Shown here: piece after piece, positions 11,455 to 64,000 of the stretch
Position numbering within the stretch: the first letter of the stretch is position 1
How the letters are laid out: every line of letters begins with the position of its first letter
NCBI RefSeq assembly: GCF_041381155.1
Contig: NC_091149.1
Span: forward strand, 8,944,609 to 9,008,608
DNA length: 64,000 bases
Direction: 5' to 3'
Source of the DNA: Argopecten irradians
Taxonomy: Eukaryota > Mollusca > Bivalvia > Pectinida > Pectinidae
The notes under the pieces: generated by a model
The model's database searches: none
Told to the model about the DNA's origin: nothing
The model's input: the letters and a program-made list of their open reading frames with translations, nothing else
Program-made: the position numbers and the translations under genes

Positions 11455-11830
11455 ACCCCTGCGAGATGGTATTCATGACATCATAAATATTCATGAATGA
11501 TTCATGAACTTTCAAGATTGCATGTGGTTCATGAAATAAAGTTCATGAATATTCATCAAATGACTCATGAACTCTTCAAGAAGTTTTATAAATCCATGAA
11601 ACAATCATGATTGTTCATGATCAATGTGTCAAAAATTATCCATGAAGTTTTATGCGTAATTGATATTCATTAAAATTCTTCAAAATGAATGGAAATGTTT
11701 CATTCATTTTGAAAATTTTCAATGAACATCTGTTATGCATAAAACTTCATAAATGATTCTTAAAATGCTATTTCATTCATTTTTATGAATTTTAATGAAA
11801 ATCCGCAGAAGTCAAATTACTTGTCACATT
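11455..11830. repeat. AT-rich palindromic element in the 3' flank, copy 1
   Basis: The stretch is dense in TTCATGAA-type palindromes and folds into a long imperfect hairpin. The centre is at about 11695, where TTCAAAATGAATGGAAA faces TTTCATTCATTTTGAA. The stem extends outward to ATGAAGTTTTATGC (11643) pairing with GCATAAAACTTCAT (11737), about 50 bp per arm with mismatches. The same structure follows the other two galactosyltransferase copies (about 17665-18010 and 28045-28390). It may be an old MITE of unknown family; no target duplication is clear. The AATAAA signal of the gene lies inside it. Confidence 0.65.
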
Positions 11831-28024: not shown

Positions 28025-29430
28025 TATTTTGTACTTATTGTTTATACCCCTGCGAGATGGTATTCATGACATCATAAATATTCATGAATGATTCATGAAC
28101 TTTCAATATTGCGTGTGGTTCATGAAATAAAGTTCATGAATATTCATCAAATGACTTTCATGAACTCTCCAAGAAGTTTTATAAATCCATGAAACAATCA
28201 TGATTGTTCATGATCAATGTGTCAAAAATTATCCATGAAGTTTTATGCGTAATTGATATTCATTAAAAATTTTCAAAATGAATGGAAATGTTTCATTTAT
28301 TTTGAAAATTTTCAATGAACATCTGTTATGCATAAAACTTCATAAATGATTTTTGAAATGCTATTTCATTCATTTTTATGAATTTAAATGAATATCAACA
28401 GAAGTCAAATTACTTGTCACATTACCACATGAGTCACATGATTTCTATATATATTTCCGCCAAAATAGACACAATCCAAAATGGCTGCTGTATCTGCTGG
28501 CATGAGGAAGTGGAAATATTATTCATCTTAAAATGGAAGTTTTGTCACATTAATGGACGGATTATTCCATTCCTGGATTTTTTTAAGCACATATATACAC
28601 TTTCAGTAAGTTTTGATTTATCTGCAGTTATTTTCAACATGAAATTGTTGCACACTGATATTGCTATAGTGATTATGCTTCTATATTGGTTTGTGTGTCA
28701 AATGTTATTGAATTAAATTGTCAATATAAACTATCATGCTTTACACCTGTAGGTTTATTTTGGACAAATGCTACTTTACTTGGAATGTATTATGAAATTG
28801 AATGCTGTATTTCATTGAAAAATGATTTTGTAAGAATTTACCTGTGGTAGTATGAAAACATAATAAACAGGTTTACCTGTTGGTGATTTCATGTTATATA
28901 TTAAAGATAGGTTTCGCCCAACCAAATAATTATTTTTTTGTAAAATCCGCTAAACGGAAGAAATGATGAAAACACATATTAAAGATACCTCAATTTAATT
29001 TCTTTATGCGTACGAGCATGAACAAATGTATCTTGAATACAACATTGAAGGAAATCCTTGATTTATTACGACGTCAGCTAGACAGATTAGTTTGCAAAAA
29101 GATGCAATGGCTTGTGTTGTCGATGTTTCGTGCATGCGCATTGTTATGCACTAAAAGTAAACAAAATGGCTGAACAAAAGCGTGTGAGATAAAAAAATAT
29201 ATATATCTGAATCGGCAACAAAGAGGAGGAAAATAGAATGGAATCGGTAGCACCCTAGGATATCTCTAGGGAATTATATTCAGAGATGTCATGTACCAGT
29301 AGAAGAAACAGAAGCCACATCACAAGCGGAACTTGCCCGGTTCGTGTTGCACGTAGTGAGTTAAATTTCAACACATATGCCAGCGCACATACAGCCGCTT
29401 AAAAAGAGGTTTTAGGCACCGATGTTTGAG
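28025..29430. other. 3' flank of galactosyltransferase copy 3
   Basis: Contains the palindromic element (about 28045-28390), the TATA/ATG patch with a damaged E2F-like core (about 28443-28500) and the left part of the extra block (from 28953), including ACAAAATGGCTGAACAAAAG at about 29160. Within the block a short stretch reads VPVEETEATSQAEL in one frame in both units 2 and 3. It may be an old exon, but it is too short to name. Confidence 0.4.
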
Positions 29431-35608: not shown

Positions 35609-37940
<2,332 letters not shown>

Positions 37941-38061
37941 ATTCACTGGATTTCGACAGAGTCTGGCATGAAGGATTATTATTCAAATTAGAGTCTTATG
38001 GTATAAAAGGAAGAGTGTTACAGTGGTTTCGAAATTATCTTTCTGATCGAAAACAAAGAGT
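37941..38061 (+). mobile_element. LINE fragment 1 (reverse transcriptase, 5' truncated)
   Basis: One frame reads SLDFDRVWHEGLLFKLESYG, then KGRVLQWFRNYLSDRKQRV, the standard segment of a non-LTR reverse transcriptase of the jockey/CR1 type. The upstream part is missing, as usual for 5'-truncated LINEs. The frame is cut at AAACAAAGAGT by the Ngaro-like element and resumes at 42960 with ATCTACTGAGGGTTTCC, giving codons that follow on directly. Confidence 0.85.
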
Positions 38062-38132
38062 CTTCACTCCACTACTTCAAAAAATATAACTACAACGCAA
38101 ATATCAATTTGCCGTACTAGCGTGTCAGTGTA
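38058..38132 (-). repeat. B2 terminal repeat of the Ngaro-like element
   Basis: 75 bp, the same as 38675-38749 by eye. It begins GAGTCTTCACTCC and ends GCGTGTCAGTGTA (given on +). It is the outer 3' end of the element in its own orientation. Confidence 0.85.
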
Positions 38133-38488
38133 GCAGTCGGCGTTTAATGAAAACCATTGTGAAATTTTTTAAGAAAATATATACATAGAATGAAGGCTCC
38201 TCTCTGTAGAACTACAGCAATACGAATGTACATGTAAAAACAAGATATTATTTATGCTCGACTCATTAGAAAAACAAAACCGCCCCATCAACAGCACACA
38301 CCTGTCGCCCAGGAAAAACCGGAGATAGCCCCCGGAAACCTGTGTCCGATGGCAGGAAACAATTATATCCAAACAGGAGGGCCTAGGGGAAACGCTGGAC
38401 CTGCGCCGTCATAGAAATGTATCTATTCCAATAATTCAATATAACAAACATACGCTAACAATGAAAAAAAAAGGAACATTGAATTCCA

Positions 38489-38749
38489 AAAATTAAAAAT
38501 TAAGTGTCCGACCTGCTAGGAAGACAGCTAGAAAATGACCCTACCTACGCGTGTACCGATATTGTACACGTGATCCCGCTCCCACGGAGCGTGCGCCTAC
38601 ATGTAGCACGATAGTCATACGATGTCGTTTAAGACAAATAATTCCCGCTATACTGTCGAAACGCGGGAATATTTGAGTCTTCACTCCACTACTTCAAAAA
38701 ATATAACTACAACGCAAATATCAATTTGCCGTACTAGCGTGTCAGTGTA
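38489..38749 (-). repeat. A2 and B1 internal repeats of the Ngaro-like element
   Basis: A2 (about 38489-38678) matches A1 at about 42773-42963. B1 (38675-38749) matches B2. They meet at GAGT, the same four bases found at both junctions with the host LINE, so this internal join reproduces what a circular form would have at its closure. A2 contains several perfect palindromes, described among the findings. Confidence 0.85.
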
Positions 38750-38873
38750 CTAGAAAAAACAAAGAAAGGGAAAAACTCGAGTGACGCGACAAAAGACAAA
38801 GTGGGAAAACGAAATGCATAATAACTAGGCCTAAATATATCTGTAAAAATGAAGGTAAAAACATAATTAATAT

Positions 38874-39911
38874 TTACAAACCAAGCTTCTGCGTAACACT
38901 CAAACGCGACTGTAAAGAATCGGCAACATTTCCGTCCTTACAAGCTTCACTTTTCCAACGACCGTGCCTCTTAAAACATCTGTCATTAACGCCGTTATTT
39001 GCGGCGACGGTAGCTCCCCCAGCCCGTAAACTGTGCAAACCGACGTTCTTAACGTCACACACCAAAGACAGACGCTTCAAAATGGCTTGTCTAGTCCCTG
39101 TGTAGCTTAAACATTTGTTCTTATGGATCAACTTACAAGTAGATCCCGAGCGAAAAATAGGTTTAAATAAAAACGCGTTGTCGTCGAGATTAATCTCCGC
39201 GATTTCAATGTATTTGCGTATCATAGTGAGCGGACAGGCCACTGTCTGGCCTTTGCTTATTACTACCTCGTCACCATGGCGATATTGGTCGGTTTTACTT
39301 TTCCTAATTTTTAAAACTAAATAGCTGTCACAAATTTTCAGGTCTGAACAAAGCAGATTGCTAAGCTCATTGAAACGGAGAAAACCAGAAAAACACAATA
39401 AAATCATTGACAAATCTCTAATTACCAGTAAATCGCTATTACCAGAAAAATAATTACACAAGTTAATCAAAATGTCCGCAGTTAATGGTTCCTTCTTACA
39501 AACTGGTTTGTGTGAACATCTCTTGGAGGTCTCCAACAAATGTCGAACAAAACTGTTGGTGGTGGGATCCGGATGTCCATTAATATCATGTACCCATTTA
39601 ATAGCGTAAACAACGGATGAAATAACGGAGAAAGAAGAGTGTTTGTCCAATAGAAAATTCAGATATAATGCAATATGTACAGGATTTGCGGGTAACGCAC
39701 AACAATCGTGAGACAAACAAAAATGTTTCCAACGACGAAAAACGTCAAAGTACTTTTTGTTGGTGTTGTCGCTTTTACTATGCAGGATCCGGTCGGCCAT
39801 ATTCTCCGACAACTTGTGAAGGGATGATCCTACTGTTACGCCTGCAGCCCTCACGGCCTTTTCCACCGATCCTTGTAAGCCTATGCCTGTTGAAAAAAAC
39901 CAACAATGCAT
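38874..39911 (-). CDS. Tyrosine recombinase region of the Ngaro-like element
   Basis: About 345 codons. The N-terminal part is helical, like the core-binding domain of phage-integrase-type recombinases. The catalytic part shows the family signatures: the Arg box (CFSGFLRFNEL), a conserved Lys in KSKTDQYRHG, HSLRAGG and HGRWKSEA. In this family the enzyme is thought to integrate a circular DNA intermediate, taking the role of the DDE integrase of LTR elements. It is the last frame of the element. Treated as part of a fossil element. Confidence 0.85.
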   Translation of the reverse strand: MHCWFFSTGIGLQGSVEKAVRAAGVTVGSSLHKLSENMADRILHSKSDNTNKKYFDVFRRWKHFCLSHDCCALPANPVHIALYLNFLLDKHSSFSVISSVVYAIKWVHDINGHPDPTTNSFVRHLLETSKRCSHKPVCKKEPLTADILINLCNYFSGNSDLLVIRDLSMILLCFSGFLRFNELSNLLCSDLKICDSYLVLKIRKSKTDQYRHGDEVVISKGQTVACPLTMIRKYIEIAEINLDDNAFLFKPIFRSGSTCKLIHKNKCLSYTGTRQAILKRLSLVCDVKNVGLHSLRAGGATVAANNGVNDRCFKRHGRWKSEACKDGNVADSLQSRLSVTQKLGL

Positions 39912-39927
39912 AAATACAACAAGCCTG

Positions 39928-41787
39928 CTAACTTCTAAAATCTAATCTTAATGCTATCATATTGAAAGACAACACTTGTCTCTCAAAAACTCCATTATTT
40001 CCCCTGCCACCCTGTGTGACCTTTGTCCGTGACAATGGAAGGTTATCTTTTACAAAACTATAAAACATTTCCCCCTGACATAAAATAGGCCAAAAAACTG
40101 CTGAGTGCCATACTGGAACTACTAGTGTCCCATATGCCTCATCCGCCTTCATTTTGTCCAAAGTTTTACAAATAAGCCGGGGAGGGGGAACGAACCAATT
40201 GTTCTCTTTACCCCAGTATGCAGTGAAACAATCGATAGCCTCTGTGCCTGCGCACCACCAGCGAGAGTTGAACCGCGTACATTTGGTGTTATAATCGGAA
40301 GCGAAACGATCCACGTCGTGTGGTCCCCAACTTTTCTCGCACAAATCGAACACCCATGCTTGTACAGACCAGTCATCGGAATCAGAGCATCTGCTTAAAA
40401 AATCGGCTGTCTTATTATTATTTCTTGGCACCCACTGAGTTTGCATAGTGATACTATACTCCGATGTAAGCCTCAACATATCCATAGCAACCTTCTGTAA
40501 ATAGGGTTTGGAGCTACCTACCCTCGCGATAGTGCACGCGCTTTTGTTGTCCATAAACAACCTGACGCTGTGACCCTTGACCTTGTCTAAAGTACTATTT
40601 AATACACGTCTCGCACCTTCCAACTCCCTCCAAGTGGAACTGCGCATGCGTTCGTTATTATTCCATGTCCCCATGACAACGCTATCACCGTGCTCATATA
40701 ACCTATTCAAGTTTTGATACAAACCATCGCCTTCAGGAAAGGCTAATGCATCACGCATTATTCTAGTGTCCTCGACAGCTAGAATTCCGTCTCCCTCCAT
40801 AAGAGGATCCTCACATGGGATTAAGAAACCTCCGTAACCAACCTCGGAAGCATCGGTACAGATTACCTTGGAACATTTGTTTTCAAGTGGCGTTTTCAAA
40901 TTCGACCCTTTGTCGTTTAGAGCTTGTACGTTACACAACCAGAACTCGATTTCGTTCAGTGCCTCAACGCTTAAAAACACTCCAGCATTCCAACTGGCCC
41001 TTGTCAATAAACACGCGCTAAGCTCTCGCGTACGCAAACGAACCAACGACCCTATCACACTTTGCATTGATATGACCAGCCCGACAATGCTCGCTACATA
41101 CCTGGCCGAGAATAATAGCTGACCTCTGTCAGACACTAAAAACATAGTGTGGTTCAACAATGACAACAACCTGTCGACCCTGTCAATCGAAACTCTGACC
41201 ACGCCTTCTTTCATTGTCCACGTATAGCCGAGCCACGTGGCGTCCTGGGAAGGCTCCCATTGGCACTTATCGTCGGCTATCAAAAAACCGTATTTATGCA
41301 GACACGTCTGCACGAACTGACTAGATTCGCTAGCCCCGCCTACGGTTTTGTGACCACCAATTCCGTCATCTAAATACATTACTAGTTTATGACCTTGCCC
41401 ACGCACGTGTTTGACTACCTGTCGTAAGACCTTTGTAAATATATAGCCGGCGGTAGAAATACCGAAAGGAAGAACGTTAAATACAAAGAATCGCGTTGTT
41501 CCGCCCATATCTACTTCGAAACCTAAAAAGCCTCTATGATCGGGGTAAATTTCGATATGATGGTACGCCGATTTCAAATCAAACGTGTACAAAAAATCGC
41601 CAACATTGAACATATCTCGGGCTTCAACTGTATCCTCATACTTGAACTTGAACTTGTGCAGAAAAACATTGATATGACGACAATCCAACACTAGGCGTGC
41701 TTTACCAGCGCGATTGTACGCGACCGTCAATGGGTTAACGACACGTGGTTGAACTCTGACCTCTGCTATACAGCCTATCCTAAGCAA
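39928..41787 (-). CDS. Reverse transcriptase and RNase H region of the Ngaro-like element
   Basis: About 620 codons. Reverse transcriptase motifs run from KARLVLDCRHIN through FDLKSAYHHI and FNVLPFGIS to YLDDGIGG, the YxDD active site. RNase H follows (CTDASEVGYGGF, FMDNKSACTIA, NKTADFLSR). A C-terminal extension with WFVPPPRLI and VPVWHSAVFWP is typical of DIRS/Ngaro polyproteins. No methyltransferase domain was recognised, which favours Ngaro over DIRS proper. It briefly overlaps the preceding frame at 41775-41787. Confidence 0.88.
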   Translation of the reverse strand: MLRIGCIAEVRVQPRVVNPLTVAYNRAGKARLVLDCRHINVFLHKFKFKYEDTVEARDMFNVGDFLYTFDLKSAYHHIEIYPDHRGFLGFEVDMGGTTRFFVFNVLPFGISTAGYIFTKVLRQVVKHVRGQGHKLVMYLDDGIGGHKTVGGASESSQFVQTCLHKYGFLIADDKCQWEPSQDATWLGYTWTMKEGVVRVSIDRVDRLLSLLNHTMFLVSDRGQLLFSARYVASIVGLVISMQSVIGSLVRLRTRELSACLLTRASWNAGVFLSVEALNEIEFWLCNVQALNDKGSNLKTPLENKCSKVICTDASEVGYGGFLIPCEDPLMEGDGILAVEDTRIMRDALAFPEGDGLYQNLNRLYEHGDSVVMGTWNNNERMRSSTWRELEGARRVLNSTLDKVKGHSVRLFMDNKSACTIARVGSSKPYLQKVAMDMLRLTSEYSITMQTQWVPRNNNKTADFLSRCSDSDDWSVQAWVFDLCEKSWGPHDVDRFASDYNTKCTRFNSRWWCAGTEAIDCFTAYWGKENNWFVPPPRLICKTLDKMKADEAYGTLVVPVWHSAVFWPILCQGEMFYSFVKDNLPLSRTKVTQGGRGNNGVFERQVLSFNMIALRLDFRS

Positions 41788-42747
41788 TTTTTCTCTATTT
41801 CGTTATAAACAAATTGAAGGTTGTCACGAGCGGACTTATTGTTCCTTAAACGAGCATTCGGGGGAATCTCTTTAAATGGCAGCTTATAACCATCAGTAAT
41901 CACTGACAAAACGCTCTCGCTAGCGCCTGTTGCTTTCCAAAAAGCTAAAGATTTCTTTAATCTACCAACAGGTGAAACAGACCCTTCTACTAATACAACA
42001 GAATTATGATCACTGCTATGATCAACATGGTTAAAACAAAAAGTTTTACTTAGCTTTTGACCGTTGCTGTGTCCGGAAGCTGACATAGCTGGGCACTCTG
42101 ACCTCCAGTGTCCGGCCCTACCACAACCATAACACACTCCAGGCCTTGGAGCTCTGACGGTAGCCGTCTTGTCCGCTGGCACGGGGACTTCAGTAGGCGC
42201 TGAATAAAAACGGTGTTGATACGGCGAGTAACGGGGCCTCCCTTTTCCGGATTTTTGCTTGGCGGCCTTGATTTTTCTGTCCGCTCTAGATCGAGCGCCG
42301 GTCCATACGTTTCTCGTCGTCCGAGTCTGAGGCGAGTGGATTAGACACATACTCTTCCACGGCTTTCCATCCGGCCTCCGAGGTATCAGCGAGCTTAATG
42401 AGCTTCTGTCTGTGATTGAGCAAACTCATACCTTCCGCTATCAATGATTTGGTTGCCGGGGGGTCATGAAGCGATGTCTCCTCGGCCTCCTGTAGCTTGG
42501 AAACTACCTTTTGGTTAAACTTAAATTGTTCTTCGCAACTCTTTTTGGTAAATTTGTGATTGTCCGCGCCAATAATGTCCTGACGAATTTTCGCACGTTG
42601 AGCATTAGAAATATTAACTTGTTGCACATGAATTTTAGACTCCAACTCCGTTAGCTTTTGCGTCATCAACATATCCAAACGTGAAAACATATCCGCTTGT
42701 GCTGAATCTACAGTAGTCTCTATGTGATTTTGTAATTTTGGGTCCAT
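41775..42747 (-). CDS. Gag-like region of the Ngaro-like element
   Basis: Two open frames cover this region (42286-42747 and 41775-42350). The first starts MDPKLQNHIETTV and is predicted mainly helical. The second is basic and contains a zinc knuckle, CYGCGRAGHWRSEC, typical of nucleic-acid-binding gag proteins. Listed as parts of a fossil element. Confidence 0.75.
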
Positions 42748-42772
42748 GATTGATTGTAGAGGAGCGAGAAAT

Positions 42773-42963
42773 TAAAATTAAAAATTCAGTGTCCGACCTG
42801 CTAGGAAGACAGCTAGAAAATGACCCTACCTACGCGTGTACCGATATTGTACACGTGATCCCGCTCCCACGGAGCGTGCGCCTACATGTAGCACGATAGT
42901 CATACGATGTCGTTTAAGACAAATAATTCCCGCTATACTGTCGAAACGCGGGAATATTTGAGT
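42773..42963 (-). repeat. A1 terminal repeat of the Ngaro-like element
   Basis: About 190 bp, the same as A2 at 38489-38678 apart from a base or so at the inner edge. It is the outer 5' end of the element and ends in GAGT at the LINE junction (42960-42963). Confidence 0.85.
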
Positions 42964-43810
42964 ATCTACTGAGGGTTTCCTATCTTCTTTTAAAAATGTC
43001 AATGCCGGTGTACCACAAGGTTCTGTCTTAGGGCCATTCCTATTCTTATTATATATTAATGACATAACTGAATGTGTAAATAGTAAAATTAAACTCTTTG
43101 CTGATGATACTTCACTTTATGAGATAATAACTGATAACCATGTAGAAATTGCAGATAATCTAACCAATGATCTAAGTAATATCAATAATTGGGCAAAGAA
43201 GTGGGACATTAATTTTAATCCTTCAAAAACAGAAACTGTACTTTTCTCAAGAAAAAGACATATATTCAATCCTGATATTCTATTTGCAGATGATATTGTA
43301 AACTCTGTTCTATTTCATAAACATTTGGGGGTAACTTTCAGTAGTGATGGTAAATGGTCCAAACATATTAATAATATTTATACTCAGGCCTCTTAAAAGA
43401 CTAAATATTTTTTATAATATTAACTAAAACATAATGTAGATTTAGAAAGAGCCTTTGTAAATACTGTATACATCCTTTAAAATGACATTGTTTTAGATAT
43501 GGTGATGTCATTTGGATAATTGTACAAACCAAGATAAAGACTTATTAGAATCTGTACAGATAGAAGCAATAAGTATTATAACAGGCCCTGAGAAGATGAA
43601 CATATCATAATAAACTTTATGCTGAAGTTGGACTTGATTAAGTTGCAATCAGACGATAAAACTAAATAAATCAATATTGATGTTTATAATTGTAAATAAT
43701 GAATAACCCTAGATATACTTACAATAATTTGATTGATCCATCTTAATGATAATAATATTACTCCTTACACATTAAGGAATATTCGCCTGTTAATCCCCCC
43801 CTCTAGAACT
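42960..43810 (+). mobile_element. LINE fragment 2 (reverse transcriptase core)
   Basis: Continues the LINE: NAGVPQGSVLGPFLFLLYIN, then KLFADDTSLYEII with the FADD active site, then NWAKKWDINFNPSKTETVLF and FHKHLGVTFSSDGKWSKHIN, all standard non-LTR reverse transcriptase blocks. After about 43395 the frame decays; YGDVIW and DLLESVQIEAISIITG are still legible around 43495-43590, in different frames. Near 43770-43807 TLRNIRLLIPPSRT is readable. It is cut at TCTAGAACT by the Harbinger element and resumes at about 49011. Non-functional. Confidence 0.85.
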
Positions 43811-44973
43811 GGGGCCTGTAACTAGAAGCTACCTTAGTTCTTAAGGTCATCTTAACATTATCTTAGAGCGCTAAGGTGTAACTAGAAGTTCCCTTTGGTG
43901 GTCTACTAAGTGGATAACAGTAAATTGTTAAGAGTAACAGTACAACGTACCTTATCAAAAACGTAACTCCGTCTTAACTTGACCTTAACTAAATGCGTAT
44001 CTCGAAGCATTCTTATTTGTCAAGGGAATGCAAAGATCATCTTAGACATTTTTAAGGGATAACTTTCTGTATCTAGAAGCAACCTTTAGACAGGAATAGA
44101 GGTTGTATGCTAAGGGAACTTCTATGCACCCTTATCAGTTTTAACAAGATGGCAATTCTGGTTCTTCGTCGAGATCAGGATGTTCCAAAACGATTGTTTC
44201 GAGACAGGAAGAATCCATTGGATTATCTGAATGATGCTGTTGTTATTTCTGACTATCGCCTTGACAGACAATCTATATATGCTGTGTTGCGATTCTATCA
44301 AGGAAAATCTTGAACGCCACACAAAACGAGGCATGGCGCTTCCGTATCACTTCAAGTGATGATTGCCTTAAGGTTCTATGCTAGTGGGGGTTATATGTCG
44401 GTTATTGCGGAAGCACATGGAGTTAGCAAAATGGCAGTATCTCGAGCAGTCAAAATTGTTACCGATCTGATCGTAGGACAATCGAATGAGCACATTGTGT
44501 TTCCAATGAACAGACAAGATCAGTTGACAGTAAAACAAAATTTCTACAATATCCGAGGATTTCCAAGTGTCCTGGGTGCCGTGGATGGCACTTTGATTCC
44601 CATTGAGACACCTTCCACTGACGAATATCACTATGTTTGTCGAAAAGGATTCCTTGCGCTTGCAACTATTTAAAGGGAAGTGTGCGTTTGCTACAGCTCG
44701 AATTTTATTAAACATAGTATCGAATATAGGGCCTGGCTCTACACAAAGGCTCAATTTTATATTGGCTAATTGCGGTCTGTGTGCTTCTTGTCGTATCCTA
44801 ATCGAAATATCTGATGGATGGGTTATTGGGCACGATTTTTATCTTAAGGGGGGGGTTTTTGGGTTACGGACTGACGACCATGGCCTGCTTTCTCCTAAAT
44901 TGACCAAAGAACCCCCGCTGACTGGAAGTTTTATGTCTGAAAATAAAGCGGACACCGTCGTTGTGTAATAGGA

Positions 44974-46145
44974 CAGGGTTGGGGGTCAATTACATTGAAA
45001 TGTAATTTAACTTTACAACTACAATTACTTGGTTATAAAGTCAATCTACTTTGTACAAAATTTACACAATTACTCAGTTTTGTAAATGTAATTAATTACA
45101 ATTACATTCAAAAAGTAATTAATTACAATTACACATTACATTTTCCTAATATGTTTATTTTTGATAACGTCATACAATTTAGCATTGATACAGATATATA
45201 AGTCAATATCAGTAAATTCTGACAGAACACATGTTCACTTCACATAAACCGCAAGTTACAATTGAGTATTGGTAGGGTGTATTAGTTTTACATGTACATT
45301 TTTATTGGACCTAGCAGTAACATTGGCAAATGTGTCAACTTTAGGTACCAGGTACTCATGTTTTTGAATTGCATTTTATCATCATCAGCTTGAAAATTAT
45401 CATCAGACAGTCTGATTATGTGTGATCGGAATACTTTGGCAGCAGCACTAAACAATCTCTCTACTGGAGCAGAAGTGGCTGGTATAGCTATAAATGCTTG
45501 CTAGCTAAAATAGACGAATTTGGATATCAGCAAGGATTATCTTTCCAGAACTTTAATGGGTCACAACATCTCTCATTAAAGCATTGAATTTAAGACCTGA
45601 GTTGTGTCTCTTTCGTGGGGGTGTAATGGGAAGAAAACTGAAAAAGACTTCTGTTTTAATTTTCTTGGCAGGGGGCGGTGAAGACTAATATGAGCTATCA
45701 TCTATACTTTTGCCTTCATTAGATATGCTAATTAGTGATCAACAGATGTTATATAAGCAAGACCTTTGTGAGTTGTAATCACAGGCTATGTGTTCACACC
45801 TCACACCTGTATAGTGCCTGAGGGGTAAACTACAGGTAAAAAGAGGTACAAGTGTAGTTAGTGTATACTATGGTCACTGCCTCACATGTGTTACTTAATT
45901 GTTTAAATTTCTATATAGCCAAATATATGTCATTAATTAATCTTGTTATTAAACATTAGTAAATATGTATTATGTAATTGAAAAGTAATTGAAATGTAAT
46001 TGTTAATTACACATTTTTAGAATGTAATGAATTACAATTACATGTAATTGAAATATTTCTTAATTACAAATTACTTTCAAGTACTTGAAAAAAATGTAAT
46101 TAATTGCAATTAATTACAATTACATTTTTAATTACCCCAACCCTG
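44974..46145. mobile_element. hAT derivative nested in the Harbinger transposase
   Basis: The ends CAGGGTTGGGG (44974) and CCCCAACCCTG (46135-46145) are inverted repeats with the CAGGG start typical of hAT elements, extended by ATTACAATTACATT-like subterminal repeats on both sides. A direct repeat GTAATAG flanks it (44965-44971 and 46146-46152), consistent with the 8-bp hAT duplication after slight change. Removing 1,172 bp plus one repeat restores GTCGTTGTAATAGAACG and so the transposase frame. It is internally deleted and keeps only a C-terminal scrap of its own transposase. Confidence 0.85.
45371..45498 (-). pseudogene. Relic of hAT transposase C-terminal (hATC) domain
   Basis: The minus strand reads AFIAIPATSAPVERLFSAAA, followed by KVFRSHIIRLSDDNFQADDD. 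The phrase PATSAPVERLFSAAA is the hallmark of the hAT dimerisation domain. The rest of the transposase is absent, so this confirms the family of the enclosing element but has no function. Confidence 0.85.
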
Positions 46146-46295
46146 GTAATAGAACGTGCGTTTGGTTTATGGAAAATGATATTTCGCTGTATCTATAGAC
46201 CACTTCATTTGGCACCAGAAAGAGCAGTGCCTGTAGTGACAGCAATATTACACAATATTTGTGTAGAAAAAAGGACTCCCTTTGCCCGAAAGCGA

Positions 46296-46817
46296 TGACG
46301 ATGAGGATAGTGATGAAAACGGCAACGCCATTTACAGCCCCGATGATACTGCAAATGGAGCCAATGTAAGAGAAGAACTCATCAACAGGGTGTTTTCTTG
46401 ACTTGAATTTTTCATTCAGAAAAAAAAATTGAACATTGGCTTGTTCAATAAAAGTGAACTTCAAAATCTTCAATGACATTGTGACAATATATGTCCTTTA
46501 TATACTATTGCGTAATAAAAATAAATTGAAAGTCATAAGTTTAAATTTGTTGTTACTCTAATAAGCATCAAAGGCAGATGTAAGGTTGTTTATCATGACT
46601 TCTGATAACATGTTTAGGTGTAACAAAAGGATTTACCAGCTTTACAAAAACATATTTTTCATTTGTTTGAAACGAATTCAAACTGTTATTAAACATTTAA
46701 ATGAAATTTGAGCAAATAATTCCTTTATTTGCTTCCAAAAGAAGAGGCTGGTTATTATCTATAAAAATGTCTTGTATCAACTTAGATTATATTGCCTGAA
46801 TACGCCTAAAAAGAAAA
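46296..46817. other. Internal Harbinger spacer
   Basis: AT-rich sequence between the end of the transposase relic and the minus-strand Myb-like region. An AATAAA at about 46447 may be the old polyadenylation signal of the transposase. Nothing else was seen. Confidence 0.4.
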
Positions 46818-48720
46818 TCATTTCAAAAGTTGATGAACTTGTTCCTCACATTCTTTTCTGGTCAAAAAAGTAGACTGTGACACTTGAATAAGGCATTCAT
46901 CAGCACCAAGGGCATATACAGAGTTCACTGATGCTGATGATAAGGGCGTTGATGAGCATGATACCATATTTGTTGAACAGTCAGAATCTTCTTCCAAGAA
47001 ATCATCCATTTTGTTGTAACTCTTTTTATTTTGGAGGGATTCGTAATACCATTGCAGATTGCAGCCGTATTCATATGGACTTCTTTCACACTTTCTCAAA
47101 AGTCTGCAAAATAAAGCATGATTTGCTTATTGATCTAATCATCTTTCAAGGATATTAGCACTTCTAATTTTCTTCATAATTTTTGATACATATTTTGCAT
47201 CCGAATGTTATTTAGATATATTTCCTTAAAACAAGTACGGACGACGGAAAGTGCTTACATTCAAAATTTTGAAAACAGTAGACCATGGCGTCATTCTCAG
47301 TTTCTAGTTAGGAGTATTGTGCAAACTTTAGAAACACTTACACTGTCTTACATATTTTCTGGTTTAATTTTCATTAATTTAGATATTTATATGTTACTTA
47401 ATATCCTTACCATAGCAAAGCAAATGACAGTGGTGTTCCCTCCTCGTTTTCTACGTCTGTTCTTAAATCAATCGCTGCTGAGTAGCCTGAAGTAAAGTTA
47501 CCTGACTGTTGAATATCAACACTGCATGGTATGAAATGATCTTTGAGCTCCATTGCAATTTTTAGGAAACTTTCTTCACATCTTAAACGAGATTTCTCTA
47601 TTTCAAGCCTGCTTTTTTCGACAGCTAATCTCTCTGTTTCCACATTAAGCCTGCTTTTCTCAACCATATACAAATCATAATTGGTGTAATTTAATGATGT
47701 CACTGATGACGTTTTTTACCGACATTTTTCTCTTTTTGTTTTGGTTTGTTGACGATGGATTAAATGCTGAAGTGGACGGCGGTGTTGTTGTTGGAGACAC
47801 AGACATGGCAGTTGATATATTTAGATCTTCATTAGAAGCTGTGCTTTCATCCCTTATATTGACATTGTCACAGTTTGTGGAGTTTGTATCAATAATATTT
47901 CTGATAGCTCTATCCCAGACTTGTTCGACCCTTGGATTGTCATCGTGTGCAAACACGGATGCTGACGATGACTGATGATGTCTAGAAATATAAGAAGGGT
48001 TGTGATTCTTGAAATTTCATTCAATTTATGGACTTTTTTTGTGTTATTTGTTGATCTGTTATGAAGTTTTATATCATTTTTAAAGTTTATATTCCATTGC
48101 ATGACTACTGTTAACTATATGACTATGTATGGAAAGGAAATTCAACTATGCTACACACTAGCATATACATTACTTATTAGGCTATTATGTCAAAGGAAAT
48201 ATATGACGCCACTGTTTACTGTTTATGTCATTTCTGTCAAAAGTGATAAAATTCATTATCTAGGCCTAACGATTTTTTTCCAGACACACATAGTTTTTAT
48301 ACTTACCTTTGTATATGAAACGTATCTGTAACAGCGACATTTTGGACACCATCGACAGCGGCAACTCCTAGCACTGCTATCACTTTTTCCTCTAAAGGAC
48401 TTAATCCCTCTACTTTTTCACCACCCCCGGTTTTTGATCTTTCGCGTTTTATTTTGGCTTCTTTTCCTTTCACAACACTTGCCCAGTCTTGCCATTTTTT
48501 TCTTATATCATCCACGGTTCGGCATGATCTGCTCACGGCATTTACAATATTTGTAATGTTTACCCACTCTCTTTTTTTCTTTTCGTTTGATATGGTATCA
48601 GAAAACTTGCCTAAAATTACTTCACGCTGGTCTGCGACGCCTTCGACTAGGGCCGTTAGCTGTTTCTGAAAAATTAGGTTTACGCGTTCGTTTAGACATC
48701 TTGTCGTCAACTGTTCTCAT
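46818..48720 (-). pseudogene. Myb/SANT-like accessory gene of the Harbinger element, decayed
   Basis: The minus strand begins near 48720 with a methionine frame reading MSKRTRKPNFSE; the neighbouring frame then carries QLTALVEGVADQREVILGKF, REWVNITNIVNAV and TVDDIRKKWQDWASVVKGKE, a Myb/SANT-like DNA-binding domain of the type encoded by Harbinger second genes. The frame switch near the start indicates a frameshift. A good donor (CAAAG|GTAAGT, at 48307/48306) and acceptor (TTTCTAG, about 47982) suggest an intron. The next exon holds a Ser/Thr-rich part (AMSVSPTTTPPSTSAFNPSS), and a Glu/Lys coiled coil (EKSRLEIEKSRL) follows in another frame. A further open piece lies at 46818-47099. It is inactive. 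Confidence 0.65.
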
Positions 48721-49010
48721 TAAGAAGCTTGACATCAGCTTCCAAAGGTACTAATAAAAAACGCACAGAAGACACCGATTGGTTAATTGTAATTGAAAAT
48801 TAAAAAACGATAGACGGATTCCGGAATCGTCACGTTTAGCATTCTCGTAAAGTCGGAACTTAAGGGCTTGTTAATAGGTATTTCAACAAGCTTACGAGAA
48901 AGTTACATGCTTGTTACGGAATTGTCGAGATACACACGTAAATTTCCCTTAGCTATCTCTTAATTCAGTCCCTTAGCCTTAGCGTTAAGGGAACTTTCTT
49001 GGTACGGGCC

Positions 49011-49305
49011 CCTGAATTATACTCCAACAGCTTTATTCCCTCAATGCTAAGAGAATTTAATCAAATAGATATAGAACTCATATTTAATAATTCATTAGAA
49101 CAATTTAAAAAAAGTATCAAAATTGATAATGATATTCCTACTACAGAAATTTCTAATATTTTTAAATATCATGGCGACCGTAAATATAACATTTTTCTGT
49201 GCCAGCTACGAAACCAAGCAAGTAATTTAAACTCTGATCTTTATCACGATCACTTAAGAGAATCTCCAGCCTGTTCCTGTTATTATACCAATGAAAATTC
49301 ACATG
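49011..49305 (+). mobile_element. LINE fragment 3 (C-terminal region)
   Basis: Resumes the LINE after the Harbinger element: ELYSNSFIPSMLREFNQIDI, then KYHGDRKYNIFLCQLRNQAS, NLNSDLYHDHL and ACSCYYTNENSHDFF. The phrase after the reverse transcriptase, with a CxC motif and a following HYFF-type segment, is typical of the C-terminus of jockey/CR1-type LINE ORF2 proteins. It is cut again at GACTTCTTCTTT by the next insertion. Confidence 0.82.
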
Positions 49306-49681
49306 ACTTCTTCTTTTTTTTTTTTTTTTTTTTTTTTCTTTTTTTTTTTATTTTTGCATAATTACATTACAACACAATGCACATAGTCACATAAAACAAT
49401 ATACAGGTACACATATATATGTATTCACAATCACATATCACTCGCGAGCACACATAAAAACACACATACACACACCCACACATCCTCACACCCACACACT
49501 CCCACCCACACACTCACCCTTACACACACCCACATTCGTGCAAGAATGTAAACACAAATATTTCATTTTAAGGGAAAATTTTTAGAATTGAATTTTATAA
49601 TTGTTATAAATAGCACAATATTAATATCAAGTGTATTGTTGTACTAGTTTAAAATACGTATTTGAACATCACTTCTTCTTT
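49306..49681 (-). mobile_element. Poly(T)-headed retroinsertion with 11-bp TSD
   Basis: ACTTCTTCTTT at 49306-49316 is repeated exactly at 49671-49681. The 354-bp insert between them begins with a T-rich run of about 35 bases (a poly(A) tail on the minus strand), then unique AT-rich sequence and a CA/CACACCC-rich patch at about 49450-49550. The target duplication and tail identify a LINE-mobilised short retroinsertion. The body was not recognised as a known SINE. Confidence 0.8.
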
Positions 49682-50670
49682 GACTGTAGGCACTTCTATG
49701 AACAGAGAGCAGTTCTTATACAGGGAATGAATAACTTAGGTTTACCAGATAATCATAATCATTGAAACATTAAATGGATGTAAATTTTGCAATAATGATA
49801 TTAACAAAGATATTTTACAATGCGTGATTGAATATATATGCCATACTAAAAGATTTGATTTCTGATAAACATATTTTATATACATGTATCATAGCCCTCT
49901 GCATATATAAGCAAACAAAAACAAGTAACAAGTACCCATATCTAATTACTTGATAGTCAAAATACTATCTAGCAGTGCAATTAAACATCTAAACTATTGT
50001 ATATGTTAATATTTATTTCTAATTTACTCTAAACTATCCTGGCTGGATGGATACTGAATACTGTTTATCGAATATTGAGAATCGTTTTATACTATAATAA
50101 TTATTTAATTGAATAATCAAACTGTACATATTAGAACCATAAATGTTGGTTAACTCCAATTGTATAAAAAATTGCATTCAATCTCCTACCATTTTTTTTT
50201 CATATTCAACTGAAGACAAAATGCTCATTTGTTGTCAGACTTTCATACATATATCCCAAAGGGATGGGTCATTGTGCATAAGCACGGGGACTTTTTGGCC
50301 TAATATCTCATGGTGTGTATGTATGTTAGTCTGTCAATAAATGAGCATGATTCTTATCCCTATCCAAAAACTACAATCACTAGGAATATGAAATCCAAAT
50401 AACTAAACTTGTTCTGAAACATTTTCTATAAAAAATAAAATTGGAGTTATCCCCCTTTAATTAGTAATTACTAATATTATTATCACTATACTGTAATTAA
50501 TTCAATTTATTTGTATATATAAATATATGTATTAATTAATTGCAGAATGAATTCATGTTTATACTTTAAAATAAGATCTGGAGAGGACTTAAATAGGCGT
50601 AGCCTGATGTCTGATCCTATTGATGTACATAATATCAATAAAATATTGTTGAAATTGAAATTGAAAGTCA
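49682..50670 (+). mobile_element. LINE fragment 4 (C-terminus and 3' UTR)
   Basis: Codons continue the LINE protein (FDCRHFYEQRAVLIQGMNNL, GLPDN), then decay; YICHTKRFDF at about 49838 is a usual LINE C-terminus. The following AT-rich kilobase is probably LINE 3' UTR. It ends near 50635-50668 with AATAAAATATTG and (TTGAAA)n-type short repeats, the kind of tail seen on CR1/L2/jockey-type elements. The exact 3' boundary is inferred. Confidence 0.65.
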
Positions 50671-50695
50671 CAATAGTTTGTTTCGGGTTAAATAT

Positions 50696-50710
50696 GGCGC
50701 ATGCGCAGAA
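50696..50710 (+). promoter_or_regulatory. NRF1-like site upstream of the SWIM-YqaJ gene
   Basis: GCGCATGCGC at 50697-50706, within GGCGCATGCGCAG, matches the palindromic NRF1 consensus. It lies about 60 bases upstream of the chosen ATG, in a short GC-richer patch directly after the LINE tail. The context suggests a TATA-less promoter. An ATG inside the motif (50701) opens the same frame 21 codons earlier, but the ATG at 50764 gives the better N-terminus. Confidence 0.5.
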
Positions 50711-52870
50711 ACCACCTGGGAGGACAAACGTCATCTGGGCGTCCTTTGTTTATAGCAACCAAGATGTCGTCGCGGGAATTACAAAATTCTTTCGTTGACA
50801 GCATCGCCTCCCGTCAGGTTTTTCAACCTTATAACTCGGTAGCATATGCTTCGATTTTTCAAAGTAAGGTTCCAAACATAAATTTCCAAGTTATTTATGA
50901 CTTCATGGTCAATAGGAAGCGGCCAGTTGGGGAGTCAGGCGACGGATATCATCAGCTGTCAACTGTCAGCTGTCATTCTGTCAAATCGTACCGATCGATG
51001 GATAGAGCTGTCGCACATTACCAGGCAGGGGATGTCCAGCAGATCAAATTTGTGGAGGTATCGATGTTTTTAATAGAAACTTATGTAATTTATATTTAAA
51101 TCGTTAGATATATTCGTTGATTAAAATTCAAGCGGGCCTAGATTCAGTCGTACGGTGGCCTAGGCTACAGTAGGCCTACACGGTGACCTAATTTTCGGCG
51201 ATGTTATTGCATTTGTCAATGAAGTCAATATAATTTAAAAGCAAAATTTCAAACCCCATCATTGGTAACAAAGAATATATATAAAAATTATAAACACAAA
51301 TTGCTTTAAATGTCTTTAAAAAGCATGTCAAAAGAAAAAAAATATTATGAAAAGACGCAACAGACAGTGAAGTAGTCTAGTCAAGTAATTAACCAAGAGT
51401 TATCTTTCTTCCTTCATGATTTGCACTGACAGGATTGGGGAAAAGTTGCATCTTCTATTGTTTTCTTTTTATAGGTTGATACTGATCTAATTTATGGGAC
51501 AGCAATGGTACTTGCGTCAATGAATAAAACGAAATATTCTGTCAACATCGCCTTCAAGAATGAAATACCCATTCATGCTTATTGCCAGTGTCCTATCGGG
51601 TAAGACCACAGTCATTATACATTTTGTAAAGCAGACAAATGAAAACAAATTTTAGGTTGAAAAGTATCCTTTTTTTAATTTTTTTTTCAAATTATAAATA
51701 CCGCATAAATGCATTCAGTCTGTCCATAAAATCATTTATTATTTTTCAATTAATTAATTCATAAAATTCTGTCCTCAAGTCTGTTTATTTATTTAGATTA
51801 ATTTGTTAATTATTAATTTAGATTAATCAATATATTTATGTATCCATTTATTTTTTATTTATTTTACAGTTTGGCCAAATGCTGCAGCCATGTTGGGGCA
51901 TTATTATTCGCCATCAATGGGTACCATTTAGAAAAAGATAAAGAAAATTCTCAAATCCAATGTACATTAAGAAAATATGAATGGAATGTACCAAGAAAAC
52001 TCTATATGGATCCGCAACCTGTAAACAATATGCATTTCTGAAAGAGAACTGATTGTGACAAGCAAAGTGTCTTGAATTATTGATCCACGACACTCTTCCG
52101 ACAGAATTTATGATCAAGATCACTACACCAATATGATGATGGAATTAAAGGCAGTTTTTCCAAAATCAGGTTTGTAAATTACCTTCAGATATTTCAGTTT
52201 TCTGATATATACATGTATTACCATCAATGAATCAAAAAGATAAAATACTATGATATAGAAACTTTCAGACTTGTATTACCATCATAAATTTTAAAAAAAT
52301 GCAAAAATCTTGGGATTTTATAAATAATTTTTTTATAACCCAGTGATTGTTATAATTTCTTTCAAAACCACAATAACTATTTTACCTTCAAATACTAGTT
52401 CTCCAGGGGGAGAATGTATATAAACATTACACAGTATAAATATCCCTTCCACAAATTTTCGGCCTCTTGGCCATCTTCAGGTACATAGAAACACAAGAAA
52501 AGCTAAGTGAAAGCCATCTTGAACTTTTGATACTATTTTACCAGCAATGTTTTTATATTGGCAGGTATGTCACACTTAGCCATTATTCCTGATGTCAAAC
52601 CACCTGTCCAGAGAGAAGAAGTTGTATTGACAGCCATAGAATCTGATCCAATGGAAGAAAGGGCACATGGACTGGTGTACAAGCCAAATAGCAGCACTGG
52701 TACATACATTGTAATTAAAAAAAAAAAAAAAAAACAAACACACACACACACAAACAGCATTTCTTTCAGATAAATGTGATTTATTACAATGTTCTGAATT
52801 TAGATGATAGTAATGACACAACATTGATTTTATAAAATCTGTACATGTATTATTTATTACACAAAACAAC

Positions 52871-53063
52871 TACCGTATTTGAGCCAATAAGCGCCCAGGG
52901 CGCTTAAAAATGATAAAAATAGAAAGGTGCTAATAAGTCGCAAATTTATACCGTTTTATGTAATTTTGGTCCTTATTTATGCATGGGCAATTGAAATTGA
53001 GGCCTCAAAAAAGGGAGAGGGGCGCTTATAGGGACATGGGCGCTTATTGGGTCGAATACAGTA
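52871..53063. mobile_element. TA-flanked MITE in intron 4
   Basis: The left end TACCGTATTTGAGCCAATAA continues GCGCCCA; the reverse of the right end is TACTGTATTCGACCCAATAA continuing GCGCCCA. That gives about 27-bp TIRs with three mismatches around a 190-bp element, with TA at both ends as for Tc1/mariner- or pogo-type MITEs. GGGCGCTTA is repeated just inside the ends. No protein is encoded. It lies in an intron and so does not disrupt coding. Confidence 0.75.
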
Positions 53064-53679
53064 CATGTATTCACATTAACGATTCATCCATAAAATAACA
53101 TGCATATTCATTGTAATCAACTAAATTTATCATGGAAATATTCACATAAATATTCACACTTTATATTTGATACAGACAAATTTACATTTAATTTATTACA
53201 ATTACTGTTTGCATTTAATCAACACAAATGGAATTTGTTTTACAGCTGCAGTAACATTATAATTGTTTTGTCATATATTTCAGTTCATCTCCTAGCACCA
53301 ATTGATCCCTCTTTAACCCAATATATTGAAGAAAAAACAAGAGGTCAACGGGAAAGTGTATTGTGGCAAGATTTGCATAAAGGTAGAATTACCAGCTCCG
53401 TGTTTGGGGACATACTTCGGGCAGGTGGTAAACCTTTATCCCTGATAGATCGAATTATGCATGGATCTGGTTTAGAAAGGTAAGTATTTGATCTGAATTA
53501 AAATTATAGATGACAAATTAAAAATTCAAATAATGTACATACAAGATATTCCTTTTGGACAACACTTCAGTTCTCATCAGCTTTACTTGATCTGTATGCA
53601 TGTAATACACATGTTCACCGACCAAAATATGTACATGTACATATACATGTATATATATATTGTATTATTTGATTTTGTT

Positions 53680-53835
53680 TGTTTAATGTCCTACTAACAG
53701 CTGGGGTCATTTAAGGATGTGTTAGGTTTGTTGGTGGAGGAAAGTCAGAGTATACAAATACACGGAGAAAAACCATCGATCAGTGGTCACACATTGGATT
53801 CCAACTCGCAACCCTGAGGTCGAGGGCTTGTGGTA
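53680..53835. mobile_element. SINE-like repeat fragment in intron 5
   Basis: It opens TTTGTTTAATGTCCTACTAA and CAGCTGGGGTCATTTAAGGA, then has GGTGGAGGAAAGTCAGAG and GGAGAAAAACC, and ends near TCCAACTCGCAACCCTGAGG, whose reverse resembles a tRNA box B region. It is the same family as the fragments at 5975-6022 and about 22575-22625. Truncated and diverged. Confidence 0.55.
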
Positions 53836-54533
53836 ATATGTATGTTCTGTACATGTATATAAAAAGTGTATGCACCTGTACTAGTATACATTGTAGCCAA
53901 TTACTAATTTTAAACTGAAACAGGTGTTTTCTCAATTTTAGGTACAGCACTTTACCCAAACCGATTCAGTGGGGAATCGACCATGAAAGGGAAGCTGTGG
54001 GTGACTATATAAAGCTCCAGAACCGGGTTACATCTCTGAGTGTTAGTAAGACAGGTCTTACTCTTCTCCCTTCTCACCCCTTTATTGGCGCGTCCTGGGA
54101 TGGTAAGATTATTGATACCTCCATGCCCCAAGAAAACAATATTGGAGTTTTAGAGATAAAGTGTCCATATTCTGTAAACGGCCAGCTTGTAAATGAAATG
54201 CAAGTGCATGAAATTGTAGAAATGGGATCAAACGACTTTTGTTTACAAAAGACAGAAGAGGGAACCAGACTGAGAAGGAGTCACTGTTACTACGCACAAG
54301 TGCAAGGCGAAATGGCGGTTATAGGTATCACATGGTGTGATTTTGTGGTTTTGACCAGAACAGCACATGGAAACTGTTTTATAGAAAGAGTGTATTTTGA
54401 TCGTGACTTTGTTTCAAACATGATGCCTCGTTTAGTGGAATTCTATGTGAAACATATTTTACATGATTGAATTCCTATTTCCAACAAACTTTAATTCATA
54501 TGACTTTAAGATATGTTTACAAAAAAAAATAAA

Positions 54534-54877
54534 AGTAAGGAAGGAAGAGAATATAAATAACTATTTGTGATACAGTAAAAAGGTTCAAGCAAGTTTATTG
54601 GGAATGAAATTGATTTAATTTTTTTAAGTTTCAACTTTGAAAATATTTTCTGAGCAATATATCTTTCAATATTTTTTAGCAACAACAATTTAATATCTGG
54701 ACTGTCTAAATCTTTCATATTTGTTTTTGGTTATTTTTCATACAATATCCAATTATCAATTATTGTTTTACACAAAAGAAACGGTTTTTGATCCATTAAA
54801 CATTAACCTTGTACGCAGACAAGGGGTATTCTATATTCATGTCTTCTTGTCGTCATTACATTATATATATATACAGC
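54534..54877. other. AT-rich spacer before the satellite
   Basis: About 340 bp of AT-rich sequence after the poly(A) signal of the preceding gene, ending in a short TA run (about 54862-54874). Nothing was recognised. Confidence 0.5.
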
Positions 54878-57800
54878 GATCACACCCTGCTGTACTGTAG
54901 TAGTTTTATCACAGCTATCACACCCTGCTGTACTGTAGTAGTTTTATCACAGCTATCACACCCTGCTGTACTGTAGTAGTTTTATCACAGCTATCACACC
55001 CTGCTGTACTGTAGTAGTTTTATCACAGCTATCACACCCTGCTGTACTGTAGTAGTTTTATCACAGCTATCACACCCTGCTGTACTGTAGTAGTTTTATC
55101 ACAGCTATCACACCCTGCTGTACTGTAGTAGTTTTATCACAGCTATCACAACCTGCTGTACTGTAGTAGTTTTATCACAGCTATCACACCCTGCTGTACT
55201 GTAGTAGTTTTATCACAGCTATCACACCCTGCTGTACTGTAGTAGTTTTATCACAGCTATCACACCCTGCTGTACTGTAGTAGTTTTATCACAGCTATCA
55301 CAACTTTATCACAGCTATCACACCCTGCTGTACTGTAGTAGTTTTATCACAGCTATCACACCCTGCTGTACTGTAGTAGTTTTATCACAGCTATCACACC
55401 CTGCTGTACTGTAGTAGTTTTATCACAGCTATCACACCCTGCTGTACTGTAGTAGTTTTATCACAGCTATCACACCCTGCTGTACTGTAGTAGTTTTATC
55501 ACAGCTATCACACCCTGCTGTACTGTAGTAGTTTTATCACAGCTATCACACCCTGCTGTACTGTAGTAGTTTTATCACAGCTATCACACCCTGCTGTACT
55601 GTAGTAGTTTTATCACAGCTATCACACCCTGCTGTACTGTAGTACTTGTATCACAGTTATCACACCCTGCTGTACTGTAGTAGTTTTATCACAGCTATCA
55701 CATCCTGCTGTACTGTAGTAGTTTTATCACAGCTATCACATCCTGCTGTACTGTAGTAGTTTTATCACAGCTATCACATCCTGCTGTACTGTAGTAGTTT
55801 TATCACAGCTATCACACCCTGCTGTACTGTAGTAGTTTTATCACAGCTATCACACCCTGCTGTACTGTAGTAGTTTTATCACAGCTATCACACCCTGCTG
55901 TACTGTAGTAGTTTTATCACAGCTATCACACCCTGCTGTACTGTAGTAGTTTTTATCACAGCTATCACACCCTGCTGTACTGTAGTAGTTTTATCACAGC
56001 TATCACACCCTGCTGTACTGTAGTAGTTTTATCACAGCTATCACACCCTGCTGTACTGTAGTAGTTTTATCACAGCTATCACACCCTGCTGTACTGTAGT
56101 AGTTTTATCACAGCTATCACACACCCTGCTGTACTGTAGTAGTTTTATCACAGCTATCACACCCTGCTGTACTGTAGTAGTTTTATCACAGCTATCACAC
56201 CCTGCTGTACTGTAGTAGTTTTATCACAGCTATCACACCCTGCTGTACTGTAGTAGTTTTTTCACAGCTATCACACCCTGCTGTACTGTAGTAGTTTTAT
56301 CACAGCTATCACACCCTGCTGTACTGTAGTAGTTTTATCACAGCTATCACACCCTGCTGTACTGTAGTAGTTTTATCACAGCTATCACACCCTGCTGTAC
56401 TGTAGTAGTTTTATCACAGCTATCACACCCTGCTGTACTGTAGTAGTTTTATCACAGCTATCACACCCTGCTGTACTGTAGTAGTTTTATCACAGCTATC
56501 ACACCCTGCTGTACTGTAGTAGTTTTATCACAGCTATCACACCCTGCTGTACTGTAGTAGTTTTATCACAGCTATCACACCCTGCTGTACTGTAGTAGTT
56601 TTATCACAGTTATCACACCCTGCTGTACTGTAGTAGTTTTATCACAGCTATCACACCCTGCTGTACTGTAGTAGTTTTATCACAGCTATCACACCCTGCT
56701 GTACTGTAGTAGTTTTATCACAGCTATCACACCCTGCTGTACTGTAGTAGTTTATCACAGCTATCACATCCTGCTGTACTGTAGTAGTTTATCACAGCTA
56801 TCACACCCTGCTGTACTGTAGTAGTTTTATCACAGCTATCACACCCTGCTGTACTGTAGTAGTTTTATCACAGCTATCACACCCTGCTGTACTGTAGTAG
56901 TTTTATCACAGCTATCACACCCTGCTGTACTGTAGTAGTTTTATCACAGCTATCACACCCTGCTGTACTGTAGTAGTTTTATCACAGCTATCACACCCTG
57001 CTGTACTGTAGTAGTTTTTATCACAACTATCACACATCTCTGCTGTACTGTAGTAGTTTTATCACAGCTATCACACCCTGCTGTACTGTAGTAGTTTTAT
57101 CACAGCTATCACACCCTGCTGTACTGTAGTAGTTTATCACAGCTATCACACCCTGCTGTACTGTAGTAGTTTTATCACAGCTATCACACCCTGCTGTACT
57201 GTAGTAGTTTTATCACAGCTATCACACCCTGCTGTACTGTAGTAGTTTTATCACAGCTATCACACCCTGCTGTACTGTAGTAGTTTTATCACAGCTATCA
57301 CACCCTGCTGTACTGTAGTAGTTTTATCACAGCTATCACACACTGCTGTACTGTAGTAGTTTTATCACAGCTATCACACCCTGCTGTACTGTAGTAGTTT
57401 TATCACAGCTATCACACCCTGCTGTACTGTAGTAGTTTTATCACAGCTATCACACCCTGCTGTACTGTAGTTTTTATCACAGCTATCACACCCTGCTGTA
57501 CTGTAGTAGTTTTATCACAGCTATCACACCCTGCTGTACTGTAGTAGTTTTTATCACAGCTATCACACCCTGCTGTACTGTAGTAGTTTTATCACAGCTA
57601 TCACACCCTGCTGTACTGTAGTAGTTTTATCACAGCTATCACACCCTGCTGTACTGTAGTAGTTTTATCACAGCTATCACACCCTGCTGTACTGTAGTAG
57701 TTTTATCACAGCTATCACACCCTGCTGTACTGTAGTAGTTTTATCACAGCTATCACACCCTGCTGTACTGTAGTAGTTTTATCACAGCTATCACACCCTG

Positions 57801-63800: not shown

Positions 63801-64000
63801 AGTTTTATCACAGCTATCACACCCTGCTGTACTGTAGTAGTTTTATCACAGCTATCACCCTGCTGTACTGTAGTAGTTTTTATCACAGCTATCACACCCT
63901 GCTGTACTGTAGTAGTTTTATCACAGCTATCACACCCTGCTGTACTGTAGTAGTTTTATCACAGCTATCACACCCTGCTGTACTGTAGTAGTTTATCACA
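54878..64000. repeat. 38-bp satellite array, about 240 copies, open-ended
   Basis: The unit is TATCACACCCTGCTGTACTG followed by TAGTAGTTTTATCACAGC. It repeats head to tail to the end of the window, so the full array is longer than 9.1 kb. Each unit contains one GTAC and one AGCT, and TATCACA occurs twice per unit. Most copies are identical. Variants include an extra T in the T-run (for example near 55950, 57548, 60173, 63497), CATCCTG in place of CACCCTG in three neighbouring units (about 55708-55785), a shortened unit near 55296 and an irregular unit near 57025. The 38-bp period shifts the frame and stops occur in all frames, so it is non-coding. Confidence 0.97.

Follow-up and report, generated by a model that had tools for sequence, protein, structure and literature searches.

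The window studied here, a stretch of 64,000 nucleotides of Argopecten irradians DNA (NC_091149.1; G000:C16:8944609-9008608; host genome 846 Mb in 1508 contigs), holds in its positions 37951-50665 a single long interspersed nuclear element (LINE) which, with a probability that we would put at about 0.9, was interrupted by three later and independent insertions, one of which, an element of the Harbinger superfamily, carries a derivative of a hAT transposon nested within it. The continuity of the LINE pieces, their junctions, the empty site of the hAT derivative and most of the protein domains were observed directly. The pieces of the LINE are as follows.

37951 to 38061, plus strand: LINE piece 1 (part of the reverse transcriptase, with the 5′ end truncated), 97-100% identity in seven of seven relatives
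42960 to 43811, plus strand: LINE piece 2, clean in 42960-43392 and rich in insertions and deletions (indels) in 43393-43811
49012 to 49316, plus strand: LINE piece 3, with the left target-duplication copy of a retroinsertion (49303-49316), 98.4% ungapped identity to L006/L047
49668 to 50665, plus strand: LINE piece 4, including the right duplication copy (49668-49681) and a 3′ TTGAAA tail, 90-97% identity to seven relatives

Relatives of each element were found by search and then read as stretches (L numbers denote loci, C numbers contigs); since each search scored the best candidates only, all copy numbers given here are lower bounds. For the LINE, window positions 43000-43800 served as the query and gave 41 matches, the window itself included (best 40 of 392 candidates scored). 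Seven loci other than the window (L002-L008), picked by their match to the middle piece, were cut out and compared by blastn with window positions 36000-52000; distinct LINE relatives numbered nine in all, L051 and L052 being duplicate loci of L004 and L003. All four pieces were present, in the same order, in each of the seven. At the first cut the neighbouring pieces share four bases (GAGT) in six of the seven relatives, the remaining one (L005) having about 90 additional bases at this point, while the pieces adjoining the Harbinger cut share three bases (CTG) and those adjoining the retroinsertion 12-16 bases, in both cases in 7/7. An earlier interpretation, made from the sequence alone (the sequence-only reading), had proposed one LINE in four pieces and had suggested precisely such an alignment with relatives in the same genome; the proposal is upheld, as neighbouring pieces adjoin almost exactly in all comparisons but that of L005 at the first cut. 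That the four fragments represent separate insertions which came to lie side by side by chance is hardly conceivable, given the order kept in every relative and the expected short overlaps at each cut (six of seven at the first), and nothing was found in favour of it. The matches do vary in extent and quality: that of piece 1 is shorter in three relatives (two start at 37972-37974 and one ends at 38046), and the identity of piece 3 ranges over the seven from 81% (L003) to 98%, the match of L007 being split in two.

Piece 2 matches RVT_1 with 47.3 bits. It was also claimed previously that codons join naturally at each cut. This holds for the first and the retroinsertion cuts, where the reading frame runs on across the interruption (open reading frames, ORFs, read by eye), but not for the Harbinger cut, at which the frame of the window LINE is already broken inside an indel-rich patch. 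With a query starting at 37300, the LINE match begins only at 37951, which places the 5′ edge at about this position and not at 37941, as had been read before. LINE sequence extends further upstream in L048-L050, L048 and L050 having 4856 bp in common at 99.3%, and on the strength of these two longer relatives the window copy can be regarded as 5′ truncated. The LINE ORF of L048 encodes endonuclease and reverse transcriptase domains (Exo_endo_phos, 40.9 bits; RVT_1, 109.4 bits). Together with 5′ truncation and a short tandem 3′ tail, these are features of APE-type non-LTR retrotransposons, from which the window copy differs in having no detected target duplication; a truncated copy of this kind would have been inserted by target-primed reverse transcription. 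Near the start of the same L048 ORF (2007-5024, minus strand) we noticed the peptide DVELNPGP, which resembles a 2A-type motif. Such motifs occur in some LINEs.

A target-site duplication of the window LINE was looked for and none was found. Duplications are visible, by eye, in L047, L051 and L052, which are truncated at other points. This weighs against the proposed history, in that the 5′ edge of the window LINE may be a product of deletion or rearrangement. On the other side, the duplication may be hidden by the next repeated element, at 50674-52985, which starts about 9 bases past the LINE 3′ end. That repeat has five other near-complete matches of 88-92% to 50664-51500, and one of 94% over 2.3 kb on C15.

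The first cut is occupied by a 4.9-kb retrotransposon with the following parts.

38058 to 42963, minus strand: PAT-type tyrosine-recombinase retrotransposon inside the LINE, with Gag, reverse transcriptase with methyltransferase, and recombinase (RVT_1, Dam, zf-CCHC, Phage_integrase), and split repeats
42774 to 42963, minus strand: repeat A1 (outer), one difference in 190 to A2 at 38489-38678
38489 to 38685, minus strand: repeat A2 (inner), overlapping B1 at a GAGT junction
38675 to 38749, minus strand: repeat B1 (inner), 75/75 identical to B2
38058 to 38132, minus strand: repeat B2 (outer), 75/75 identical to B1

This element was previously described as Ngaro-like, with identical repeats. The former label had to be abandoned because of the methyltransferase domain. 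According to a published key (PMC4157794), tyrosine-recombinase retrotransposons with a methyltransferase are assigned to DIRS, and those among them with split direct repeats to PAT, Ngaro being defined by lack of the methyltransferase. The domain (PF05869, Dam) scored 30.7 bits, over the cut-off of 28.1, for 39931-40470 (minus strand) taken alone; it remained under this cut-off in the whole window ORF (26.9) and in two relatives (24.4 and 25.4). As for the repeats, which are arranged in the order A1-B1-A2-B2, identity is true of the B pair, and the A pair shows its single difference. The Gag is read in two overlapping frames and contains a zinc knuckle (zf-CCHC, 22.6 bits, cut-off 20.8), and the reverse transcriptase ORF matches RVT_1, no RNase H family being reported for it by Pfam at E<=0.1. 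The recombinase match (Phage_integrase) is under its cut-off of 27.1 in the window (23.7 bits) and over it in relatives L022 (27.6) and L023 (31.7). Thus, by structure alone, the element is placed in PAT, within the DIRS group. It has the methyltransferase, the zinc-knuckle Gag and the split direct repeats in common with the echinoderm form of the Pat1-like type, which is characterized (PMC4157794) by internal repeats downstream of the recombinase and a zinc-finger Gag; internal repeats in that position, and reverse transcriptase and recombinase on the same strand, are likewise common to both. Near-whole matches to the PAT copy were found on C248, C14 (in two pieces) and C690 (in two pieces), and small differences in length separate the window copy from its near relatives. 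On C248 (L010 1-500), some 500 bases with no match to PAT precede the copy, which starts within its B repeat, and a misassembly is possible there.

The GAGT reported at the first-cut junctions was recovered as the four-base overlap described above. A 4-bp target duplication was considered and rejected, as GAGT is the element's own inner A2/B1 junction too. The right ends of the PAT copies on C690 and C8 are GAAT and GATT, and the junctions that were read (four left and four right) share no more than a single A. Here and for the remaining insertions, the mechanisms we propose are inferred from knowledge of the families; PAT would have entered the LINE by means of its recombinase at a short common sequence, without target duplication.

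The second cut contains an element of a different kind, itself interrupted.

43812 to 49011, plus strand (transposase), with a Myb/SANT ORF on the minus strand: NuwaI-like DNA transposon of the PIF/Harbinger superfamily, flanked by CTG copies, with ends GGGCC(T/C)GTA
48306 to 48716, minus strand: Myb/SANT-domain ORF of this element (PF13873, Myb_DNA-bind_5, 53.3 bits, cut-off 21.7, E 2.7e-14)
44974 to 46145, no strand assigned: non-autonomous hAT derivative of 1172 bp within the Harbinger transposase gene, with family copies and 8-bp duplications

A Harbinger element with a 3-bp duplication had been predicted, and the duplication (CTG) is there. CTG flanks both sides of the two Harbinger copies whose ends were read, those in the window and on C14. 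PIF/Harbinger in the narrow sense, with its TWA duplication, can be dismissed on this ground, and the label is better refined to NuwaI-like. The NuwaI group of the PHIS superfamily is described (PMC4482050) as having a CWG target duplication and a second ORF with a Myb/SANT domain, and the window element appears to fit this group in both respects, differing in that its transposase is split and frame-broken. For the same reason the evidence for the DDE domain is weak: DDE_Tnp_4 scored 16.9 bits against a cut-off of 24.8, and this match comes solely from a 50-residue right fragment of the transposase. Two other copies of the element were found, on C14 (itself interrupted) and on C9 (diverged). 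This NuwaI-like DNA transposon would have entered the LINE with duplication of CTG.

The splitting of the transposase by a hAT derivative, also anticipated, is substantiated by the empty site in the Harbinger copy on C14, which reads GTAATAGAACG; the copy on C9 says little on this point because it has almost no DNA match on the left-hand side of the site. The repeat GTAATAG given previously for this insertion is a real duplication, although it is in fact the 8-bp GTAATAGA, the left copy of which has one additional base and lies within an indel-rich patch (patch 2, below). Target duplications of 8 bp were seen in all five other hAT copies read. The 1172-bp family has at least 11 other near-full-length copies of 90-96% identity (among the best 40 of 245 candidates), and at 45291-45500 (minus strand) a remnant of the hAT C-terminal region is recognizable (Dimer_Tnp_hAT, 20.8 bits, just under the cut-off of 21.4). 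The CAGGG...CCCTG ends, 8-bp duplications and weak match to the dimerisation region are all common to non-autonomous hAT derivatives, with no notable difference. The derivative would have entered the Harbinger transposase gene either before or after Harbinger reached the LINE.

The third cut was made by a short element in the opposite orientation.

About 49317 to 49667, minus strand: poly(A)-tailed retroinsertion, opposite to the LINE, 5′ truncated, a copy of a longer repeat

Its 11-bp duplication, already recorded in the sequence-only reading, was found again and can be described as 11 perfect bp or as 14 bp with one mismatch; the poly(A) retrocopy thus would have entered the LINE with an 11-14 bp duplication. 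At least 39 other places match at 92-98% (best 40 of 111 candidates), and four of the five copies read share sequence beyond its 5′ end, which indicates truncation. Over 2.5 kb of upstream sequence in a longer relative of the retroinsertion, no ORF exceeds 73 amino acids. Both duplication copies contain CTTCTT where nine of nine distinct LINE relatives have CTTTTT. As this T-to-C change is present in both copies and absent from all relatives, this mutation of the LINE probably preceded the retroinsertion; a second difference, between the two copies, arose after it.

A separate problem is the order of these events. That the LINE precedes PAT, Harbinger and the retroinsertion is firm, and nesting sets no order among the latter three. 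The succession LINE, then Harbinger, then hAT was earlier called firm; the priority of the LINE and the position of hAT inside Harbinger stand, whereas arrival of hAT after the entry of Harbinger into the LINE is not firm, since a Harbinger element already holding hAT could enter the LINE as one unit. It is possible, though we think it the less probable course, that hAT inserted into Harbinger first and that the composite then moved into the LINE. This is compatible with nesting alone, and the rates of private substitutions in LINE, Harbinger and hAT are alike (LINE versus hAT, p=0.77; LINE versus Harbinger, p=0.81); however, no second composite was found, the site in the C14 copy being empty and the C9 copy uninformative.

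Private substitutions amounted to 5/4737 in PAT, 7/1802 in the LINE, 3/318 in the retroinsertion and 11/2284 in Harbinger (46154-49008 only), based on two, nine, five and two relatives, respectively. For hAT, with five relatives, five substitutions in about 1050 bases and three private indels were counted by eye outside the patch. The rate of PAT differed from those of the LINE (p=0.024), Harbinger (p=0.005), hAT (p=0.022) and the retroinsertion (p=0.011; Fisher tests, uncorrected). These figures suggest that PAT is the youngest large insertion, and the claim to this effect made earlier for the 4.9-kb element is thus probably right. Several points count against reading too much of a history from them: the contrast in age is modest (p=0.024, with several tests), the relatives are uneven in number (nine for the LINE versus two or five), the hAT denominator is an estimate, and private differences in a transposon can predate its insertion.

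Interpretation of the ages is further complicated by two regions of dense differences in the window.

43393 to about 43835, no strand assigned: indel-rich patch 1, reaching or crossing the LINE/Harbinger border, right edge approximate
44648 to about 45065, no strand assigned: indel-rich patch 2, spanning the Harbinger/hAT border

Relative to L047, the 433 LINE bases at 42960-43392 differ by 2 substitutions and no indel, whereas the 418 compared at 43393-43811 differ by 20 substitutions, with 18 bases extra and 10 missing. For Harbinger against the C14 copy, 834 bases at 43812-44647 contain 10 substitutions, one extra base and one missing base, whereas 324 aligned bases at 44648-44973 contain 29 substitutions, 52 extra bases and 1 missing base; private changes continue to 45065, about 90 bases into hAT. 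When only private changes in the LINE are considered, patch 1 contains 16 substitutions and 17 additional bases (415 bases compared), while the remaining LINE pieces, over 1804 bases, contain 7 substitutions and 1 additional base. Similar patches occur in the PAT copies on C690, at positions matching about 40400-41540, and on C248, at about 41900-42350. Eight LINE relatives served as a control: each was set against L050 in bins of 50 bases, and bins with at least two indel events were counted. Seven of the eight had none, and L007 had seven such bins at 2800-3200, within uninterrupted LINE and with no junction there.

One explanation would be that the patches are real mutations, arising for example from error-prone repair around insertions. 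Both window patches reach or span an insertion junction, and on C690 the patch stops some 150 bases short of the 3.6-kb interruption of that copy, so that proximity of all three to insertion points has to be set against our interpretation. Nevertheless, we regard real mutation as very unlikely: patch 2 runs well into hAT, extra bases outnumber missing ones (18 versus 10 and 52 versus 1) with many substitutions mixed in, the L007 patch lies away from any junction, and the other junctions of the stack are free of such clusters when differences are binned along it. The more specific idea that the clusters at the two junctions record error-prone repair synthesis accompanying insertion seems to us very improbable; if true, transposition in this genome would bring local hypermutation with it. 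The patches are probably uncorrected long-read sequence, that is, an assembly error and not a sign of age, and part of the apparent decay is then probably an artefact. This carries a general caution, namely that frameshifts taken for decay can be assembly patches.

The LINE is a recent insertion, and the stack consists of ordinary kinds of elements with an unusually clean record. The use of nesting to order or defragment insertions is an established approach (REANNOTATE, PMC2672092; TinT, PMC3014933). In contrast to those chronologies, the present one concerns a single locus, was read by hand and uses empty sites in relatives, and it may serve as a clean example of how mobile-element insertions can be ordered in this way. 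One genome also gains a NuwaI-like element and a PAT-type element, the latter with sister copies that are nearly identical.

An Rfam scan of 36000-54000 gave no match at the gathering threshold. Elsewhere in the window, some 70 CT dinucleotides are repeated at 35609-35748, and three near-palindromes, each 133-135 bp long with a centre of 3 bases, lie at 11629-11761, 17841-17975 and 28222-28356; they are related, being mutually 79-81% complementary. A tandem array with a 38-bp unit, in about 239 copies with 97% matches, occupies 54873-64000 and runs to the window end.

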